DNA of 64,000 nucleotides from Spirochaeta cellobiosiphila DSM 17781. GTDB lineage: Bacteria; Spirochaetota; Spirochaetia; DSM-17781. The first letter of the stretch is position 1; each line of letters starts with the position of its first letter. The DNA lies in the NCBI RefSeq assembly GCF_000426705.1, contig NZ_AUFW01000007.1, forward strand, positions 186,001 to 250,000. Reading direction: 5' to 3'. Made by a program: the position numbers and the translations under genes. Below, in pieces: positions 20,063 to 30,540 of this stretch. The notes under the pieces were generated by a model that was given only the letters and a program-made list of their open reading frames with translations, searched no databases and was not told the origin of the DNA.

Positions 20063-22564
20063 ATGAGTAAATACGCCTTTAATGAAATAGAGCCGAAGTG
20101 GCAGAAATACTGGGAAGAAAATAAGATATTCAAAGTGGAAGAAGATCCCAGTATTCCAAAAGAAAAAAGATTATATATTCTGGATATGTTCCCTTATCCT
20201 TCCGCTGCGGGCCTCCATGTAGGACATCCAGAAGGATACACGGCAACAGATATTTGGGGTCGCTATAAACTCATGAATGGCTTCAATGTTCTTCATCCTA
20301 TGGGTTTCGACTCTTTTGGTTTGCCAGCAGAGAATTATGCCATAAAGACAGGAACACCTCCAAAGGTTACTACTGAGCAAAACATTGAACACTTTATTAA
20401 ACAAATCAAATCTTTGGGTTTTGGATATGACTGGGATAGAGAAATCCGAACTCATGATGAAGACTATTATCATTGGACTCAATGGATTTTCCTTCAACTG
20501 TTCAAGAAAGGATTAGCTTATGAATCCCAAATGCCTATTAATTGGTGTCCCAGTTGTCAAACAGGTTTAGCGAATGAAGAAGTCATAAATGGTAAATGTG
20601 AACGATGTTCAACTCAAGTCGAACGACGAAATATAAGACAGTGGGTTCTAAAAATAACAGCCTATGCTGATAGGTTACTTGAAGACCTTGATAATTTGGA
20701 CTGGCCAGAATCTGTAAAAGCTATGCAAAGGAACTGGATCGGTCGATCAGAAGGAGCTAATGTTACCTTTGAAGTTGCAGACTGTGATTTTAATTTAGAA
20801 GTCTATACAACAAGACCGGATACACTTTTTGGAGCTACCTATATGGTAGTGGCTCCAGAACATCCACTTATAGACAAAATGACCAGCCCTGAACAAAAAT
20901 CGGCTGTAAATGAGTATATAAAACAAGCGGCTCTTAAGTCGGATTTGGAACGAACAGACTTGGCAAAGAGCAAAACAGGTGTGTTCTCGGGAGCTTATGG
21001 AATTAATCCAGTCAATGGGAAAAAGATTCCTATCTGGGTTGCTGATTATGTTCTTATATCTTACGGATCTGGAGCTATCATGGCTGTACCCGCACATGAT
21101 ACACGTGACTGGGAGTTTGCCAAACAGTTCGACCTACCTATTGTCGAAGTATTGAAAGGTGGTGATGTTCAGCAAAAAGCCTACACAGAAGATGGAGTAC
21201 ATGTTAATTCAGACTTTCTTGATGGCTTAGGAAAAAAAGAAGCCATAACCAAGATGATCGAATGGTTAGAAGCTAATAAATGCGGAACAAAAGCTGTAAA
21301 CTACAAATTAAGAGACTGGATTTTCTCAAGACAAAGATATTGGGGAGAACCAATCCCCGTATTACATACAGCAGATGGTATCGTTCCTGTAGATGATAGT
21401 GAATTACCCATCACCCTTCCTAACGTTGATAGTTATGAACCTTCAGGAACAGGAGAGTCACCTCTTGTCAATATATCAGAATGGGTAGACGTAACTTATA
21501 AAGGGAAAGCGGCCAAAAGAGAAACCAATACAATGCCCCAGTGGGCTGGTTCTTGCTGGTACTATTTGCGTTACTTAGATCCCAAGAACAAGGATCGTTT
21601 TGTTGATCCTGAAAAAGAAAAATACTGGATGCCTGTTGATCTCTATGTTGGAGGAGCCGAACATGCTGTATTACATCTCCTCTACGCACGTTTCTGGCAC
21701 AAAGTATTATTTGATTTAGGTCTGGTAACAACTAAGGAGCCTTTTCAAAAGCTCGTCAATCAGGGAATGATAACGTCCTTTGCCTACCAACGAAAAGAAG
21801 GAAGCCTCGTTCCTATTGATGAAGTAGAGTCTCCTGAAACAGATAAATACATAGAGATAGCAACAGGGGAAGAGGTTCAGCAAGTTGTTGCTAAAATGTC
21901 CAAATCTCTTAAGAATGTAATCAATCCTGATGACATTATCAGTGAATTTGGTGCTGATACAATGCGTCTCTATGAGATGTTCATGGGCCCCCTAACAGTC
22001 TCAAAACCCTGGTCTACCCAAGGAGTCGTAGGTGTTCACCGCTTCCTTAACAGAGTTTGGAGGGCTTCCGATTGGGAAAGTACCACAAAGGAAGCGCCAA
22101 AACATTTGATTAAAAGCCTTCATAAGACTATTAAGAAAGTTAGCAGTGATACTGAAAATCTGGAATTTAACACCGCTATCAGTCAAATGATGATATTTGT
22201 AAATGATCTTTATAAAGAAGAAAAGCTTTATACAGAACTTTGGAGTCAATTCCTTTTGTTGCTTAGTCCTTATGCCCCTCACTTAGCAGAAGAGTTATGG
22301 CATAAACTAGGAAAAACAACCTCTATAGCCAAAGAACAATGGCCTAGCTACGAAGAAGACTTAACCAAAGAAGATACTATTACTTTAGTATTACAGATAA
22401 ATGGTAAAGTTAGAGCCAAAATCGATACAGAAGCGGATATTGACAAAGAACAGATGCTAAACATTGCTAAATCAAATGATCGAATAAAAGAATTCCTGGA
22501 AGGTAAGACTATTGTCAAAGAAATAGTAGTACCAGGCAAATTAGTCAATCTAGTGATCAAATAA
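20063..22564 (+). CDS. leuS: Leucyl-tRNA synthetase
   Basis: Charges tRNA-Leu with leucine in the cytoplasm. From the ATG at 20063 the protein has 833 residues, the family length, and begins [19 protein letters not shown] as usual. Landmarks in order are LHVGHPEGY (HIGH motif), two CxxC pairs in CPSCQTG and CERCSTQ (zinc module), the CP1 editing domain with [12 protein letters not shown] and [39 protein letters not shown], the KMSKS loop ([11 protein letters not shown]) and the C-terminal [13 protein letters not shown]. An upstream in-frame extension (to 19907) is rejected because it overlaps the divergent peptidase gene and its promoter. Its last 15 bp overlap the 3' end of the opposite lipoprotein gene. 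Confidence 0.97.
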
Positions 22565-23272
22565 TATATGCCCCTGGCTATCTAGCCAGAGGGCTTTTTT
22601 AATACCTACTTCATTCCAATATAATGTCTGTCCTATAATCAAAATCACATGATCACCTGGAACTTTAAGCCCTTGCCAGGGGTTACAGAAGTAAAATTGT
22701 TTATCACAACCTCTAGGAAGGACAACTTCCTTGTTTTCCAGACGTTTAAAAGCAAAATAGTTCATCTCTCCCTGCAATAACTTATTGATTAGATGATAGC
22801 TATTGAGTAAGTACAGATTCCCTTTTGTTACATCACAGGCTCTTTGGGCAAAACGTTCCCAATTGATATCTTGAACATTATAACCAGCTTCAATCCATTT
22901 AAGCATATAGTTCGTTATACAGCCCTGATCTTCGTCTAGCTCATAATAACCCTTTTTATCCCCCCAATATCCCATAGAAGCCAGGCTATCATTGTCAAAA
23001 CTATAATAATCAACCTGAACAAGAACCAGTTCATCTGATAGGAATAGAGACTCTGTGTTACCAGGATAAGTTATCTTCTCTTGAATTTGATTGCCTTCGT
23101 TCAACCAATACATATAACAATGATCAATTTTTGGAATAGCATATTGTCTGACAGGAATGGAGACATCCATAGCAGGAGATGAATCCAAAAAAGAACAGGA
23201 AGAAGATATTAATAAACATATGAAGATTATTGGCATATAATTAATACATAATCTTAAAACAATGTGATTCAT
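22550..23272 (-). CDS. Predicted lipoprotein of unknown function
   Basis: A 240-residue protein with an N-terminal hydrophobic segment and a lipobox-like LISSSC, so it should be lipid-anchored after cleavage before the Cys near residue 26. The mature part is rich in Tyr, Trp and acidic residues ([27 protein letters not shown]) and has five further Cys. I recognise no family. No clear Shine-Dalgarno precedes the ATG; the gap of 72 bp to the divergent next gene holds both promoters. Its 3' end overlaps leuS by 15 bp tail to tail and contains the leuS terminator. Confidence 0.7.
22570..22600 (+). terminator. leuS terminator, inside the opposite lipoprotein gene
   Basis: GCCCCTGGCTA and TAGCCAGAGGGC pair with a 2-nt loop and are followed by six T. 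The hairpin lies within the last codons of the lipoprotein gene on the other strand, encoding part of its ALWLDSQGH tail. Confidence 0.85.
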
Positions 23273-23344: not shown

Positions 23345-24772
23345 ATGGAAAATACTACTAATGACTTTCAAGAGATATTAACCAAAAACCTTATTGCTAA
23401 GGGAAAAGAAATTGACTCAGAAGTAATGCCTCAGTTGAAACAGGAATTTCATAAATTCAAGGCGTCCTTCTCCTCTATATATCAAACATTGCTAAAGAAA
23501 GGACTCATCAATGAAGACCCTTATCAGTATGACCTTAAGATATCTGAAGTCACAGCACCAAGCAGAGATCCTTTCATGGAAAATGAAAGGGCTGAACAAA
23601 TGTCCATTCGACTAGCTAATTATGATTCTCAATTAGATTTCCTCTTAAACTATTACCAATTCAGTGCGGAATTTCTGAACCTAAGCCGCTTAAAGAAACT
23701 TATAAATTTTATCAAATATATACAATGGGATAAGTTATCAACAACAGCTTCAGATACGATAACACGCTCATTTGATGAACTTACATCACGTTTGAAAGGT
23801 GGTACCGATAATATTGTCACAGGAGTCATAGCCGACAACCAAAACATGGCAAAAAGTTCCTATGGGAAAATACTTAACTATCTAAAAGTTCAAACTGTTT
23901 ATGCAAAAGAGGCCTATAAACTTGAGATTCGCGTCAAAGTCATTCCTGAAGCTAAGATTACTGAACACCTGGCTCAAACAAATAAAAAGGAAGCCATAAG
24001 GCAAATAAAGCGTGTTTTTGCCCAAAACATGAAAGGTAGTAATTTTTTTCCTGAATTGGTAACTGAACTTCTTGAAGAAGATTACTCCATGGATAAAGCA
24101 AAATTACAAAACTCTTTATTACAAAGACTCAGTGTAAAAGAAAAAAAAGTAGAAAAGAAAGATAATTCAGCAGAGATGAAGGGGTATCTATTCGATGGAA
24201 TGAATGCTCTGGCTTCAACAAATGTTCCACTAGAACAGGCTATTAAAAAATTAAACGATAATAGCCAACTCCTTGAATCACGTAAGCAGAGTTTTTCCAT
24301 AAAATTTCGTAAATGGGTACGTAAAATGCTCGGCTTGGATAAAGAAGGAATCTTTTATGAAGCAGAAGAGGTAGATCCTTTTACTGGTGCTACCCGAACC
24401 AAGATGGTGAATTTCACAGAGTTCTCTGCAAAAGCAATGAATAAAGCCCGGTCCTTAGCATCAATACGTGCCAAACTTATTGGACAGAAAAATAAAGGAA
24501 TATCATATACAGAAGAGCAAATGCTTAGTTTTATTAGTACTAATCAAGATGATTTGACTGCTTTTTCCAGAACGATGAATGGATTAGATATATTCTTCAA
24601 AACAGAAGCATCAAGAGGAGAGAGAAACAGAATCCGGGGAATTAAAAACGAATTAGGCGTTATTAAAACTCAACTAGGTAAAGCCAATCAACTCCGCCAT
24701 GAATACACAGCAGTCAAAGAAGAAATGGAACAGCTTGAGAAGCTTGGTATTGATACCAGTACAATCCAATAG
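23345..24772 (+). CDS. Unrecognised 475-residue, helix-rich cytosolic protein
   Basis: No family is recognised. There is no signal peptide or membrane segment. The protein is highly charged and appears mostly helical: near the start EILTKNLIAKGKEIDSE, repeated Lys/Glu-rich stretches about residues 255-275 (KEKKVEKKDNSAEM), and a C-terminal coiled-coil-like run ending VKEEMEQLEKLGIDTST. A basic segment SIKFRKWVRKMLGLDKEG lies near residue 320. The gene is isolated between the divergent lipoprotein and the convergent pheA fusion, whose stop codon is 4 bp away. Its length and normal codon use argue that it is a real gene; spirochaete-specific conservation is a guess. Confidence 0.6.
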   Translation: MENTTNDFQEILTKNLIAKGKEIDSEVMPQLKQEFHKFKASFSSIYQTLLKKGLINEDPYQYDLKISEVTAPSRDPFMENERAEQMSIRLANYDSQLDFLLNYYQFSAEFLNLSRLKKLINFIKYIQWDKLSTTASDTITRSFDELTSRLKGGTDNIVTGVIADNQNMAKSSYGKILNYLKVQTVYAKEAYKLEIRVKVIPEAKITEHLAQTNKKEAIRQIKRVFAQNMKGSNFFPELVTELLEEDYSMDKAKLQNSLLQRLSVKEKKVEKKDNSAEMKGYLFDGMNALASTNVPLEQAIKKLNDNSQLLESRKQSFSIKFRKWVRKMLGLDKEGIFYEAEEVDPFTGATRTKMVNFTEFSAKAMNKARSLASIRAKLIGQKNKGISYTEEQMLSFISTNQDDLTAFSRTMNGLDIFFKTEASRGERNRIRGIKNELGVIKTQLGKANQLRHEYTAVKEEMEQLEKLGIDTSTIQ

Positions 24773-24776
24773 AGTT

Positions 24777-26489
24777 TTACCTACTATATTCACCTAAAAT
24801 ACGGAAAGTTAAAGCTACTTCCCTTAATTGAGTAATGGCTCTTTGGTATTTAGCTTTATCCTCAGGTAGATCAACATCTGTATAAAACATGTAAGTCCAG
24901 GGCTTACCATTAATAGGCCGCGACTCTAGCTTATGCATATTTACATCATTGTCTTGCAAAATAGCTAAACTACGAACTAGGGAACCTGGTGTATTTTGAG
25001 TAGAAAAGACAAAAGTAGCAGCATTGGCATTCACTATATCTGGTTCAGATCGTCCAGCTACAATATAAAACCGCGTGTAGTTCATCGGATTAGTTTCAAC
25101 ACCCGATTGAAGGATCTTCATTTGATAGACTTCTGCTGCCTTTACACTGGCAATGCCTGCCAGTGTCACATCACCCGTTTGAGCTATCTGCTTCACAGAA
25201 CCAGCAGTATCATAATAGGGAATCTTTTCCCATTCAGGATGACTATCAAGGAATTCCTTACATTGGGCTAAGCCCTGGGGATGACTGTACACCTTTTTAA
25301 TACTCTTCCAGTCAGCCAAAGGATGGCAGATAAGATTGTGCTGAATCCTAATCTGTTGCTCACCAATGATTTTGATATCAGGGTATTGTAATAATAAATC
25401 ATAGTTTTCATGTATGGAACCTCCTAGAGTGTTCTCCACTGGTAGAACACCATAGACGATTTCCCCTTTTAAAACGGCTTCAAAGACTTCCCTAAAACTA
25501 CTATATGCTATAGGTTCAGCTTTATTCTCATCAAAGTAAGTAAAAAGAGCCTTTTCAGAATAAGCCCCCCGTTCTCCTTGAAAGCCTATAGGCAGCTTCT
25601 CAGTAAACTCCTGGATAGTCTTATGAGATGAATTGATTTTTAAAGGCAACCTACTTAACTCCATATCCATCATGGCAGCTAGACCTATTATATTCATCAT
25701 TAACTCTTCAAATTGAAAAAGGTTTAAGCTATCCTTATTCTCATGAACTTCTAATATAATTCCATTTACACCCGTAAGAACTGAAGACAGAATTAGAGGT
25801 ATTACTTTCTCTTTAGACAAGGGCATAGAACTACAGTCTACAAAAAGAGGAAGATGACTAAGTTCTTTTATTTTAATGATACTTAGAGAATCCGATAATT
25901 CTGTGAGCAAATCCATAAACAAAATGATGTTTACATTATTATTATCCAGAAGTAAATGACTGGCCCACAACCAATCACTGATATTATTGAAAATAGAGCG
26001 GGGCAATAAAATAAGTCCAGATCTGCTTACAGGCCACTTATCCGGAAGGTAATTAAGCTGTATTGGTACATATTCTGGTATATTATCCAACTCTTCTTGA
26101 GAATTTATAACAACAATATAAGGAATTGATGATTGAGGAGCATCAAAGCTGTTGGCTATTCTAACAAAAGAAGCTCCATTGACTATCACACTTTGGAATA
26201 GATCAGGAGAAGGCTGATCTATTCCAATCGTTAATCGATTATCTCCGATCTGTAATGAACCAAGTGAAACTGTTGTATTATCCTTCTTAAAATGACGAAG
26301 GGATTTGGGGATAACAACTGAGGCAATAACATCTTTATCTGCACATAATCCAGATAAATCACCATCTATGGATACTATAGTATAAGCCCCAAAATTATGT
26401 TCCTCATAAGTACAGTCTTTTGAAGCAATACTATCATAGAATTTTTTACTTTGCTCTGAACTTATATTGTGTTTTAATGCAACGATCAT
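24777..26489 (-). CDS. pheA: Prephenate dehydratase fused to a degenerate DAHP-synthase-like domain
   Basis: A 570-residue protein. Residues about 301-570 are prephenate dehydratase, turning prephenate into phenylpyruvate for phenylalanine synthesis: GFQGERGAYSE, PVENTLGGSIHENYDLL, the catalytic-site NYTRFYIV, then an ACT domain (TPGSLVRSLAIL, and KLESRPINGKPW for Phe binding). Residues 1-285 follow the Thermotoga-type DAHP synthase: ferredoxin-like start MIVALKHNIS, then LGSLQIGDNRLTIGI, SHLPLFVDCS and GVNGIILEVHENKDSLN. By eye the metal-binding Cys of GPCS is replaced (IDQP, 90-93), the His of DPSH is Ser221 and the last Asp is Asn256; only Glu247 remains. The front half is therefore probably not catalytic. 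No chorismate mutase domain is seen. Its own promoter overlaps the end of the preceding gene. Confidence 0.85.
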   Translation of the reverse strand: MIVALKHNISSEQSKKFYDSIASKDCTYEEHNFGAYTIVSIDGDLSGLCADKDVIASVVIPKSLRHFKKDNTTVSLGSLQIGDNRLTIGIDQPSPDLFQSVIVNGASFVRIANSFDAPQSSIPYIVVINSQEELDNIPEYVPIQLNYLPDKWPVSRSGLILLPRSIFNNISDWLWASHLLLDNNNVNIILFMDLLTELSDSLSIIKIKELSHLPLFVDCSSMPLSKEKVIPLILSSVLTGVNGIILEVHENKDSLNLFQFEELMMNIIGLAAMMDMELSRLPLKINSSHKTIQEFTEKLPIGFQGERGAYSEKALFTYFDENKAEPIAYSSFREVFEAVLKGEIVYGVLPVENTLGGSIHENYDLLLQYPDIKIIGEQQIRIQHNLICHPLADWKSIKKVYSHPQGLAQCKEFLDSHPEWEKIPYYDTAGSVKQIAQTGDVTLAGIASVKAAEVYQMKILQSGVETNPMNYTRFYIVAGRSEPDIVNANAATFVFSTQNTPGSLVRSLAILQDNDVNMHKLESRPINGKPWTYMFYTDVDLPEDKAKYQRAITQLREVALTFRILGEYSR

Positions 26490-26494
26490 ACCCC

Positions 26495-26523
26495 AAACTA
26501 GTTCAGGGTATTTTTTCTGTCAA
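26495..26523 (-). promoter_or_regulatory. Predicted leaderless promoter of the pheA fusion
   Basis: A perfect TTGACA (26523-26518), 17 bp, TAGTTT (26500-26495), then GGGGT and the ATG at 26489. The -10 box contains the TAG stop codon of the upstream lytic transglycosylase gene. The GGGG is too close to the ATG to be a normal ribosome binding site. Confidence 0.5.
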
Positions 26524-27190
26524 GAAGAAGCTTAACCTTTTTGTGTGCCTTTGTTTGGTAGGCGGCTTTGGAAGGAGTTTTTATTAAAGCAACTTTAAAA
26601 GAATCTTCCAAAGTTGATTTATACTCAAGTATCTTATCAATATAGTTAAGTGTCATCTTTGGAGTTCCCCCTTGAGCGACTCTAGAAGCACCTGCATTAT
26701 ACATAGCAAGAGCCACAACCTCATTACCACCTTTATCAAGACAACCTTTTAAGTAGGATACACCAGTCTTGATATTTAATTCTGGATTAAAGAAATCTGC
26801 TTCAACCATATGGGGAAAGCTTCTGTTATTAAGTTGAAACAATCCTCTATCAATACTTGTAGGATTCTGATTAATTGCCTGAATATTGAAATCACTTTCT
26901 GCCCAGACTAAGGCGAATACCAATGAAGGAGATACCCCTTGCTTTATAGATTCATCTAAAATCATTTTTGTTAAACTTGGATTTCGTGTATATCCATTAA
27001 AAAACTTCTTTACAAGTTCCTTAGTAATAGGGTTATTATAATAATCTTCAAAGCTTCCCTTACTTGGCCAATGGTAGGATTCGTTTATATCTGGAACACT
27101 GACTACATTAGCTTCTTCTACAATGTGTTTATCACATCCGGCGATAATGATCGTAAAACATAAAAACAACAATGCACGCTGTACTGACAT
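26498..27190 (-). CDS. Lytic transglycosylase (SLT family) lipoprotein
   Basis: A 230-residue murein-cleaving enzyme. The N-terminus has a hydrophobic segment and lipobox IIAGC, so the mature protein starts at Cys19 and is membrane-anchored on the periplasmic side. The SLT domain spans about residues 85-190: VFALVWAESDFN with the catalytic Glu, DRGLFQLN, LNIKTGVSYLKGCL and ALAMYNAGASRV. It cleaves the MurNAc-GlcNAc bond to leave anhydro-MurNAc ends. GGAG lies 10 nt before the ATG. The basic tail (AHKKVKLLLDRK) has no known role. It is followed by the pheA fusion, which has its own promoter. Confidence 0.9.
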   Translation of the reverse strand: MSVQRALLFLCFTIIIAGCDKHIVEEANVVSVPDINESYHWPSKGSFEDYYNNPITKELVKKFFNGYTRNPSLTKMILDESIKQGVSPSLVFALVWAESDFNIQAINQNPTSIDRGLFQLNNRSFPHMVEADFFNPELNIKTGVSYLKGCLDKGGNEVVALAMYNAGASRVAQGGTPKMTLNYIDKILEYKSTLEDSFKVALIKTPSKAAYQTKAHKKVKLLLDRKNTLN

Positions 27191-27264: not shown

Positions 27265-30200
27265 CTAATCTTGCAACATTTCTTCTAATTTTTGCAGAAT
27301 TTCTTCCGATTTGAAGGGTTTGTGGAGGAGACACAGCTCTTCACTAGCTATTCCATGCTTCTGAATATAATCATCAGCATAGCCAGAGATAAAGAGAGTT
27401 TTTATAAATTTGAAACGACTTTTTAATCTTTTAGCCAATTCTGGACCGCTCATTCCAGCCATAATAACATCGGTAATCAAGAACGGGGCTTTCGTATATG
27501 TCTGAGCATATTCCAAAGCCTGATTACCATTACATGCTTCCTTAACATCATATCCAGCCTGTCTGAGAACCCTTGAAGCAAACTCTCGTACAGGGGCTTC
27601 ATCTTCAACTAGTAAAATAGGGCATTCCCTATTATTGCTCACAAGACGAGAAGAAGATAACTTTTCCTTATCATCCTTGGATCCCTGTTGAATTGGCTTA
27701 AAATATATCTCAAAGCTTGTACCATATCCAGGTTTTGTCAAAATTTTTATATCTGCTTTCATTTGTTCAATGATCCCGTACACAGTGGCCATTCCTAAAC
27801 CTGTGCCCTGCCCATGACCTTTGGTAGTGTAAAAAGGTTCAAAGATATGAGCTTTAACCTCTTCCTCCATACCTTCCCCATCATCCTTTACTGTCAGTAA
27901 GAGATATTCACCAGGCAATAAAGCTCCACGGATTAGATATAAAGTTTCTTTTAACTGAACATTGCTAGTCTTAACGGTAAGATGACCACCACCGCCTAAA
28001 GCGTCCTTTGCATTGAGAACAAGATTCATCAATACTTGCTCCACTTGACTCTTATCACCTTTTATATAATCAGACTGGGCTTCCAAGTAAAAGTTCAAGA
28101 GAATATGCTCACCTAAAAATCTTTCGAAGAGAGTCTCCATTCCCCGAATGATTTTATTGAGACTTAAAGAGGATAGACTTACTGTCTTTTTTCTAGAAAA
28201 AGAAAGTAACTGATTGGTTAAAGAAGCCGCTTTGATTCCTGCTTCTCTGATTTCAGATATATCTGAATAATAAGGAGATTTTTCTTCTAACTCTGCTAGA
28301 ATTAATTCAGAATACCCATTTATTACAGTTAGCAAATTATTAAAATCATGGGCAATCCCTCCAGCCAAACGCCCTAAACCTTCTAGTTTTTGGTTTTGAA
28401 TCATTTGCCGTTCCAAGGATTTTCTAGGAGTATTATCAAAGACATATCCCCTAATGCTCTGCAAACATCCGTTCTCATCAAATGTCCCGATAATATTTGC
28501 TATAATATCAACAACTTTTCCATCTGGTCTAACCAATTGTGTTTCAAGGTATTCAAAACTCTTGGTTCTAAAAAATTGCTTTGCTAAACGCTTAAAGTCT
28601 TCATATAGGGGGAAATAATTCAACATACTACTCCCTATAGCCTGATTTGTATTCTTGTACCCAAAGATCCTGGCAAAAGCCACATTGCAATCAAGAACTC
28701 TCAATTTGTTGTTAACAATAAAATCACCAGTAAGATCATTTTCAAAGAAGTCTCTGTATCTTTTCTCACTTCTACGAAGCTTATCAAGTAAAAGTTCTTT
28801 GGTAGCAATTTGAATCTTCATCTTTTTATTTAGCTCTTGTAGGGCTTTAGTACGAACATTTACTGTGGCTTCCAGCTTCTCTGATTGTTTTCGTATTTCA
28901 CTTAATAGATAGGAGCTTTGTAATGCCACAGAGATAACAGAACGAATAGATTCAATTATAATAAAACAGGGTTTAACCAGTTCTAATACCAGTATTCCAA
29001 AAGATTCTTCAGCTCCAAATAATGGCAAAAACAAGGTAAAGGCTTCACTATCATGGGAATAATACTGTTCCCATAGCTTTTTTGCGGTATAAGCTTGGCC
29101 TTTGGGCCATTTAATCTTGTATTCTCCTCCAGGGTCTAATCGTAGGATCTCTCGCAAAGTCCAGTTCTTATCTGAATCCCAAAAAGATACACTTAAAGAG
29201 TGCACTCCAAACTTCTGGACTTCCTGAGCCATGGTATCCAAGAAATTCGTCATTGAATATTGGCTAGCAGACACACTTAACTTTTGATTGAGTTCATAAA
29301 AAGAAAGCTGTTCTTGATATTCTCGCAGACTATATTGATTAATGATAAAATGACCCAATACTCTTAAACGATCACGTAAGGCTTCTGTAGGAATATCTAA
29401 GAAAGTTGATAAATACTGATCAAAATGGCCAATGTACTCAATAATACGAGGCCATAAACTCAAATCCAGAATATGAAAGTAAGCCGACTTTATTAAGACT
29501 TGCAGACTATTAAAATTAACTTCCTTACTTTTTAAAGACTCCATAAGAGGTATAAGAAATTTGTCTATCCATAATTCTTTGGAAGGAAAAGAGGGTAATA
29601 AAAAGGGAGGCTTAAAATGTCCAATTAAGCAATCTGCCAACTCATCAAGAGAATGAATAGAAATATCATTCGTATTTTCTAAGAAGTAGTTGCCCGTTGA
29701 TTCACGCCATTCAATACTCCAAGGATAGCTTACATATTCTGTACAATAATCGGGGTATAAGATCTTTAAGACCGCTTCCATACCAGCATAATACCCACCC
29801 CGCTCTACGGTTGTAATATTTGGTATGGCAGACATAGTTTCTGGTATATTATCAAAACCGGTAATCCAGATATCATCTGGAATTTTATATCCACGATGAA
29901 CCAATTCTGCAGAAGCACCTAAAGCTAATTCGTCATTTATACAAAAGACAATATCAAAGTCGATATTCTTTTCAATCGCTTCTTTTACACCTTGCCCCCC
30001 ATCATAACTAGTGTGATTATTAAGAAAGATCTCACGATTACTGTCTATGGGAATACCTAATTGTTCTAAGGCAATATGAAAGCCTCGTAAACGATCTTTA
30101 ACAAAATCATGTTTAAGAGGTCCTGAAATAAATAGATATTTCCTATCTTTATTGGACTTTAGCACAAGATAGACGAGTTCTTTATAGGTACGAACATTGT

Positions 30201-30540
30201 CTATCAAAAGAGAATCATATCCCTCTAGAGGGCTTCCTATAAAGACTATAGGAATCAAAAAGTTTTCTTTTAAATAAAGAATCTCCTCAGCAAATTGTGT
30301 ATCCCTGTTGACAGTGGCCGTTATCAATATTAGACCATCAATCCCCAGTTTTAGTAGTTTAAGAACTTCCTGGCGCATAGAGAGTTCTTTCTGACTCTGG
30401 ACATTCTCAGTTCCAGCGGATACATAGATGATCTTAATATTTTTTTCACGAGCTATAGCATGTATTCCTTTAAGCATAAGAAGAGGAAAACGGCTATCAA
30501 AACCACCAATATAGACACCTATAACTTTTTGCTTTAACAT
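27265..30540 (-). CDS. Cytoplasmic hybrid histidine kinase with LacI-type sugar-binding sensor
   Basis: A 1,091-residue protein without signal peptide or membrane segment. Residues about 1-270 resemble the ligand-binding part of LacI/GalR regulators and periplasmic binding proteins (IGVYIGGFDSRFP, GIDGLILI, FDIVFCINDELALGA, IPDDIWITGFDNIP) but the helix-turn-helix is absent. A long middle region (about 270-590) contains a GAF-like part and a short coiled coil, then PAS (about 600-700), HisKA with GRLAGGIAHDFNNLL (His near 732), HATPase (QVLMNLVLNAKDAL, DDGEGM, GTGLGMATVYGI) and a receiver at about 965-1091 with phosphoacceptor Asp in FLITDVIM. It likely senses an intracellular sugar-like ligand. 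A lone receiver gene lies divergently 104 bp away and could take phosphate from it; this is inferred. Confidence 0.88.
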   Translation of the reverse strand: MLKQKVIGVYIGGFDSRFPLLMLKGIHAIAREKNIKIIYVSAGTENVQSQKELSMRQEVLKLLKLGIDGLILITATVNRDTQFAEEILYLKENFLIPIVFIGSPLEGYDSLLIDNVRTYKELVYLVLKSNKDRKYLFISGPLKHDFVKDRLRGFHIALEQLGIPIDSNREIFLNNHTSYDGGQGVKEAIEKNIDFDIVFCINDELALGASAELVHRGYKIPDDIWITGFDNIPETMSAIPNITTVERGGYYAGMEAVLKILYPDYCTEYVSYPWSIEWRESTGNYFLENTNDISIHSLDELADCLIGHFKPPFLLPSFPSKELWIDKFLIPLMESLKSKEVNFNSLQVLIKSAYFHILDLSLWPRIIEYIGHFDQYLSTFLDIPTEALRDRLRVLGHFIINQYSLREYQEQLSFYELNQKLSVSASQYSMTNFLDTMAQEVQKFGVHSLSVSFWDSDKNWTLREILRLDPGGEYKIKWPKGQAYTAKKLWEQYYSHDSEAFTLFLPLFGAEESFGILVLELVKPCFIIIESIRSVISVALQSSYLLSEIRKQSEKLEATVNVRTKALQELNKKMKIQIATKELLLDKLRRSEKRYRDFFENDLTGDFIVNNKLRVLDCNVAFARIFGYKNTNQAIGSSMLNYFPLYEDFKRLAKQFFRTKSFEYLETQLVRPDGKVVDIIANIIGTFDENGCLQSIRGYVFDNTPRKSLERQMIQNQKLEGLGRLAGGIAHDFNNLLTVINGYSELILAELEEKSPYYSDISEIREAGIKAASLTNQLLSFSRKKTVSLSSLSLNKIIRGMETLFERFLGEHILLNFYLEAQSDYIKGDKSQVEQVLMNLVLNAKDALGGGGHLTVKTSNVQLKETLYLIRGALLPGEYLLLTVKDDGEGMEEEVKAHIFEPFYTTKGHGQGTGLGMATVYGIIEQMKADIKILTKPGYGTSFEIYFKPIQQGSKDDKEKLSSSRLVSNNRECPILLVEDEAPVREFASRVLRQAGYDVKEACNGNQALEYAQTYTKAPFLITDVIMAGMSGPELAKRLKSRFKFIKTLFISGYADDYIQKHGIASEELCLLHKPFKSEEILQKLEEMLQD

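Follow-up and report, generated by a model that had tools for sequence, protein, structure and literature searches.

The spirochaete Spirochaeta cellobiosiphila makes its prephenate dehydratase (PDT) as the C-terminal half of a longer protein, the N-terminal half of which is a decayed type I-beta DAHP synthase (DAHPS). The decay is probably the result of a gene replacement. In this model, a Phe-type I-alpha DAHPS was gained, and the older DAHPS domain was left as a decayed passenger upstream of the only PDT in the genome. The original prediction described a PDT fused to a dead DAHPS. The dead type I-beta domain is real; the fusion itself turned out to be ancestral and widespread, and only its decay is new.

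The gene lies in a window of 64,000 nucleotides, which is the whole stretch of DNA that was analysed. The parts of the gene and its neighbours are listed in Table 1.

Table 1. Features of the fusion locus, with positions in the window.
Feature	Position	Strand	Basis
Putative lipoprotein, 240-aa ORF	22550..23272		no Pfam match
475-aa ORF, convergent with the fusion	23345..24772	plus	no Pfam match
570-aa fusion ORF: decayed type I-beta DAHPS, PDT and ACT	24777..26489	minus	one open frame
ACT domain with GSLV and ESRP (residues 486-570)	24780..25034	minus	sequence motifs, Pfam, pLDDT
Intact PDT domain (residues 298-480)	25050..25598	minus	Pfam PDT E 4.7e-60; 2qmx E 4.6e-52; pLDDT >90
Linker (residues 277-297)	25599..25661	minus	pLDDT about 40-65
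C-terminal half-barrel remnant, beta5-alpha8 (residues 157-276)	25662..26021	minus	pLDDT about 67-86
N-terminal half-barrel remnant, predicted disordered (residues 67-156)	26022..26291	minus	alignment and pLDDT
Ferredoxin-like domain remnant of the DAHPS (residues 1-66)	26292..26489	minus	Pfam DAHP_snth_FXD, alignment, pLDDT
Lytic transglycosylase (SLT) gene	26498..27190	minus	Pfam SLT E 5e-18
1091-aa protein with histidine kinase and receiver	27265..30540

The prephenate dehydratase half

The PDT and ACT domains together occupy residues 301-569 of the fusion ORF, with the Pfam matches at 301-540. The PDT match is far above its threshold (Pfam PF00800, 202.9 bits against a cut-off of 25.2), and the NCBIfam model PRK11898 gives 222.6 bits against a cut-off of 219. 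The motifs PVENTLGGSIHENYD and NYTRF, the latter including the catalytic TRF, are all in place. The ACT match (E 0.00048) falls under the Pfam cut-off, as it does in the intact relatives, which are likewise just under it. The domain carries GSLV and ESRP, the motifs with which PDTs of the GALV/ESRP type bind Phe.

The L-Phe-inhibited PDT of known structure, 2qmx, matches by sequence and is also the top match in a fold search. In an AlphaFold model made from 44 sequences, pLDDT exceeds 90 over most of the PDT-ACT half. This half should still produce phenylpyruvate under the control of Phe. It is the sole PDT in the S. cellobiosiphila genome. The linker before it contains no Met beyond residue 276.

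What is left of the DAHP synthase

The N-terminal part can be recognised as a DAHPS in several ways. Residues 160-274 match the type I-beta NCBIfam model PRK08673 with E 2.4e-12, scoring 46.7 bits where the cut-off is 335, and the second model of the TIGR01361 and PRK08673 pair gives 40.1 against 267.75. Intact relatives score 472-484 and 393-402 bits on the two models. Solved DAHPS structures are found as well, 1rzm with E 1.7e-8, and 1rzm and 4grs with E of about 1e-8 to 4e-9. When the ORF is aligned by hhalign with a profile of intact fusions, the two are colinear over residues 1-569 (E 1e-109). Since the alignment runs from end to end at this significance, a DAHPS origin by chance is not credible, and on sequence grounds the N-terminal part is a type I-beta DAHPS by descent.

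Part of the enzyme is missing. Counted against an intact relative (L002), the S. cellobiosiphila protein lacks about 62 of 335 conserved columns, and 67% of the remaining DAHPS positions are altered; the PDT is 61% identical to its consensus. The deletions coincide with catalytic motifs, namely the GPC unit (beta1-alpha1-beta2), the RT of KPRTSP and the QIGARN loop, all absent from residues 67-156, and the CERGIRT and SDG loops, absent from residues 157-276. Among the metal ligands, the Cys and the Asp of the SDG loop are deleted, the His (H271) is replaced by Ser as DPSH becomes DCSS, and the Glu is retained. Of the substrate motifs, KPRTS is reduced to QP--SP, KRG is changed to PRS, and CERG is gone. 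The 17 catalytic and substrate positions tested are invariant in 29 of 29 intact rows.

These losses agree with the original prediction for the metal Cys and His and for KPRT and KRG, and CERG can be added to them. Its claim that only Glu247 and some Arg were left holds for Glu247 (E297; Glu247 in the S. cellobiosiphila protein) and the Arg of KRG, and Asp268 and a few other residues are kept as well. Two of its alignments were mistaken. GPCS was thought to have become IDQP; GIDQPSPDLFQ aligns instead with GG-AYKPRTSPYSFQ, so that IDQP is what remains of the KPRTSP region. Likewise, the metal Asp was not changed to Asn256, as the aspartate of SDG is deleted.

The ferredoxin-like domain is a marginal match (Pfam DAHP_snth_FXD, E 0.035 and 14.4 bits, short of the cut-off of 27). 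It has lost a 6-residue loop, where intact relatives have IREIAGEE, and residues 31-60 have a pLDDT of 41-47. In the same AlphaFold model, residues 30-156 reach only 30-55, a level typical of disorder. With the beta1-alpha1-beta2 unit also gone, there is no complete (beta/alpha)8 barrel, and the near-complete barrel once proposed for residues 1-285 does not hold. In the intact homologue from Marispirochaeta, modelled with the same rows, the DAHPS part is mostly at pLDDT 80-93, with dips at 61-80, 131-140 and 241-250. In the fold search PDT comes first, and DAHPS structures follow at 1e-11 with a poor superposition (rmsd about 11 A).

One explanation for such a damaged gene would be an error of assembly or sequencing in an intact gene, and the assembly is indeed a draft of 29 contigs. 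The chance of this is negligible. An error process is ruled out by the many in-frame deletions and the heavy change of the DAHPS half, next to a conserved PDT in a frame that stays open.

The intact fusion in relatives

The search covered sixty relatives and, in a second step, 394 class genomes, 322 of which have a match. An intact, colinear DAHPS-PDT fusion of about 630 residues is found in about 43 of the 60, and in most of the 322 the open frame is colinear and about 630-700 residues long. The original prediction had called for a search for the same fusion, and its intact version proves to be nearly universal in the class. Named records with it include Spirochaetales, Sphaerochaeta, Candidatus Marispirochaeta associata and Desulfobacterales. 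The fusion is ancestral in this spirochaete class. The series of decay stages described below suggests that, in these bacteria, the intact protein catalyses the Phe-controlled entry step and a Tyr-type enzyme is its counterpart.

Outside the class, the intact fusions of Desulfobacterales (L165-L192) show about 47-54% identity. In Anaerolineae (L194-L202), DAHPS and PDT are separate adjoining genes, possibly a state before the fusion.

Stages of decay

Several members of the class have lost the DAHPS domain to different degrees. G026, a one-contig genome from another family, encodes a full-length fusion of 626 residues with a dead barrel (L072, 2382-4259, minus strand), in which GPC, KPRT, KRG, CERG, DPSH and EVH are lost. 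In G082 and G070 only a stub is left, and the stub of G082 matches the final part of the barrel. Finally, G012, G037, G056, G099 and G394 have PDT alone. In G056, G037 and G099, upstream translations place a lytic transglycosylase directly before the PDT-only gene. G047 and G064 belong to the same family as G099 and have kept the intact fusion.

The PDT tree requires four separate decays. S. cellobiosiphila and G026 differ in their deletions, and of 121 residues changed in both, only 11 are the same in the two proteins. A single decay common to these two was considered and set aside as absent from the best tree; the AU test does not reject it (p-AU 0.18). No close relative of S. cellobiosiphila, of the same family or order, is present among the genomes searched.

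The separate courses of decay bear on whether the barrel could have kept catalysis with other ligands or taken up a new reaction, for example that of chorismate mutase. The S. cellobiosiphila genome, which is 96% complete, contains TyrA (C25:9790-10125) and PDT and gives no match to the chorismate mutase families PF01817 and PF07736, nor was a chorismate mutase seen beside tyrA. Since there is no such match, a mutase must be hidden somewhere. Even so, a catalytic barrel is highly improbable here. The protein lacks two of the four metal ligands and has Ser in place of a third, and the alternative metal ligands that would speak for an active enzyme were not found, no other cluster being conserved. 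The structure prediction leaves half of the barrel unfolded, and G026 has decayed in a different way.

Replacement by a second type I-alpha enzyme

The intact DAHPS that the original prediction proposed to look for elsewhere in the genome exists, in two type I-alpha copies. Two stand-alone type I-alpha enzymes are also found in G026, G012, G037, G056 and G099. Genomes with the intact fusion have one, except G047, which has two. The extra copy (I-alpha-a, AroG-like) forms a clade of its own with support of 100/100. Among the 394 genomes it was seen only in S. cellobiosiphila, G026 and the families f13 and f31, which include G047 and G064. These are the families with decay, and every other member has the Tyr-type enzyme alone. 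An apparent stop in the G064 match was merely that gene's own end.

The two copies differ at one motif. Every I-alpha-a protein has FLSVTK, as in the Phe-regulated E. coli enzyme 1gg1, and every resolved protein of the old copy, I-alpha-b, has F[ILV]G, as in the Tyr-sensitive 6agm. In S. cellobiosiphila, G000a has FLSVTK, and G000b has Gly at that position, which corresponds to Ser219 of yeast Aro3. In DAHPS, Ser at this position goes with sensitivity to Phe and Gly with sensitivity to Tyr (PMC10349828). Read from this one motif, I-alpha-a would be of the Phe type and I-alpha-b of the Tyr type.

Carriage of I-alpha-a is associated with decay of the fusion, with 7 of 8 against 2 of 39 genomes (Fisher p 4e-6, kinship ignored). 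Correcting for kinship by paired contrasts leaves only 1-3 independent contrasts, so a sign test is unable to reach significance. The decayed genomes without I-alpha-a in the assembly are G082, a draft, and G020. G047 and G064 carry I-alpha-a together with an intact fusion, which suggests that the gain came first and the decay later.

The proposed process starts with an ancestor in which a bifunctional protein joined a type I-beta DAHPS to a Phe-regulated PDT. An AroG-like type I-alpha DAHPS with the Phe-sensing Ser motif would then have been acquired and have taken over the Phe-controlled entry step. Because of this, the fused DAHPS half would have become redundant, free to lose its active-site loops by deletion and to drift in sequence. 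The dead half would persist in frame, as stops and frameshifts are selected against and in-frame deletions are not. It would thus be retained as a passenger, since it lies upstream of the genome's sole PDT in one chain.

Is the remnant under selection?

Two apparent signs of function in the remnant were rejected. The first is its open frame of 285 codons. The same chain and frame continue into the genome's sole PDT, so openness is no evidence that the DAHPS remnant functions. The second is its strong hydrophobic patterning, which is significant against shuffling (p<0.001). Most of this signal vanishes against a neutral codon simulation at the same divergence, where the observed difference of 0.54 compares with a simulated 0.47 +/- 0.05, and 4 of 60 simulations reach the observed value. 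The dead DAHPS part has a GC content of 0.33, compared with 0.40 for the PDT. Some structural constraint on the remnant is possible. Decay is favoured, because the hydrophobic pattern is little above the neutral expectation, and the remnant presumably has no present function.

A tentative alternative, with a small chance of being right, is that the remnant gives structural or oligomerisation support. In this model, the half barrel (residues 157-276) packs on the PDT and is needed for stability or assembly, its catalysis gone. The region is predicted with moderate confidence, and the last part of the barrel is exactly what survives in the stubs of G082 and G070. The C-terminal half of G026, simulated with an assumed equilibrium GC of 0.6, is clearly better patterned than neutral drift would leave it (none of 60 simulations reaches the observed value), making this protein a better candidate than that of S. 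cellobiosiphila for a re-used pseudoenzyme. For S. cellobiosiphila, however, the signal in the C-terminal half alone is weak, as 12 of 60 neutral simulations reach it, and sister genomes (the five with PDT alone) manage at the same locus without the domain. It is doubtful to the same degree that the half barrel, its catalysis lost, has been re-used as a partner of the Phe-controlled PDT, stabilising or tuning it. If it were true, the relatives, with their intact, dead full-length, half-barrel, stub and lost forms, would be natural intermediates on the way from an enzyme domain to a regulatory domain.

The original prediction favoured a different role, in which the dead DAHPS acts as an allosteric sensor, or docks on the intact DAHPSs, and links control of entry and exit. 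The Tyr ligands of the Thermotoga maritima enzyme are H29 and S31, and the loop missing from the fusion ORF corresponds to its Tyr-site loop. In the alignment, the intact relative L002 already has Arg and Ile at these two positions, so the ligands differ even in the undecayed parent, and S. cellobiosiphila has lost the loop itself. In addition, the N-terminal half is predicted to be disordered, and related lineages have discarded the domain. Docking meets a further difficulty. The intact DAHPSs of the genome are type I-alpha, another subfamily, and therefore no interface for a type I-beta partner is expected on them. In favour of a sensor, the same chain has an ACT domain of the Phe-binding type, Song et al. 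2005 suggest that a dead fused domain could turn regulatory (PMC1173090), and working DAHPS fusions show regulation between their domains (PMC12202928). On balance, a sensor or docking module is quite improbable, and the passenger model is preferred.

Genome context

The SLT gene ends 8 bases before the start of the fusion. Upstream translations show that it adjoins the locus in relatives too, even where the DAHPS domain is missing (L074, L075, L085). On the other side, homologues of the convergent ORF, 470-471 residues long, are found at the same place in L064, L070, L072 and L080, from several families of the class.

Farther away, the 1091-residue protein combines a LacI-type periplasmic-binding-like domain with PAS, histidine kinase and receiver domains. 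It has no obvious signal peptide, and from its domains it is possibly a cytoplasmic sugar-sensing kinase.

Comparison with known systems

Two solved enzymes represent the halves of the fusion. T. maritima DAHPS (1rzm, 3pg9) belongs to the family ancestral to the N-terminal part; its metal site and effector domain are intact, and it has no PDT. The PDT of Chlorobium tepidum (2qmx) has the same fold as the C-terminal half and lacks the N-terminal domain.

The closest counterpart is the intact fusion of spirochaetes and Desulfobacterales. It shares the order of domains and the PDT-ACT half, and in spirochaetes the locus as well, whereas it is about 62 residues longer and has all DAHPS catalytic residues. 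In the open literature searched, no description of a DAHPS-PDT fusion or its decay in spirochaetes or Desulfobacteria was found, and no paper on a pseudoenzyme DAHPS besides the S. oneidensis case in PMC1173090.

Taken together, the class shows all stages: both halves working, both working with a second Phe-type enzyme, a dead full-length domain, a dead and shrinking one, a stub, and none. This series makes it possible to test how a bifunctional protein is dismantled after gene replacement. It is also a caution against taking an open frame as sufficient evidence of function in a domain that precedes an essential one.

Precedents for such decay exist, and the statement that no such pseudoenzyme fusion had been described is contradicted by one of them. 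In Shewanella oneidensis, an aroA-I-beta pseudogene is fused to aroQ-pheA (Song et al. 2005, PMC1173090). As in S. cellobiosiphila, a dead type I-beta DAHPS domain is carried on a working PDT chain, but in S. oneidensis it sits at the C-terminal end and the chain includes a chorismate mutase as well. Pseudomonas syringae has a disrupted tyrA-aroF fusion, with a dead aroF half on tyrA (Song et al. 2005, PMC1173090). In P. syringae, as proposed for S. cellobiosiphila, one catalytic domain was discarded, the other kept, and a replacement gene gained. The enzymes in P. syringae are prephenate dehydrogenase and EPSP synthase. Thus the kind of event is already known, while this instance and its graded series are, as far as seen, new.
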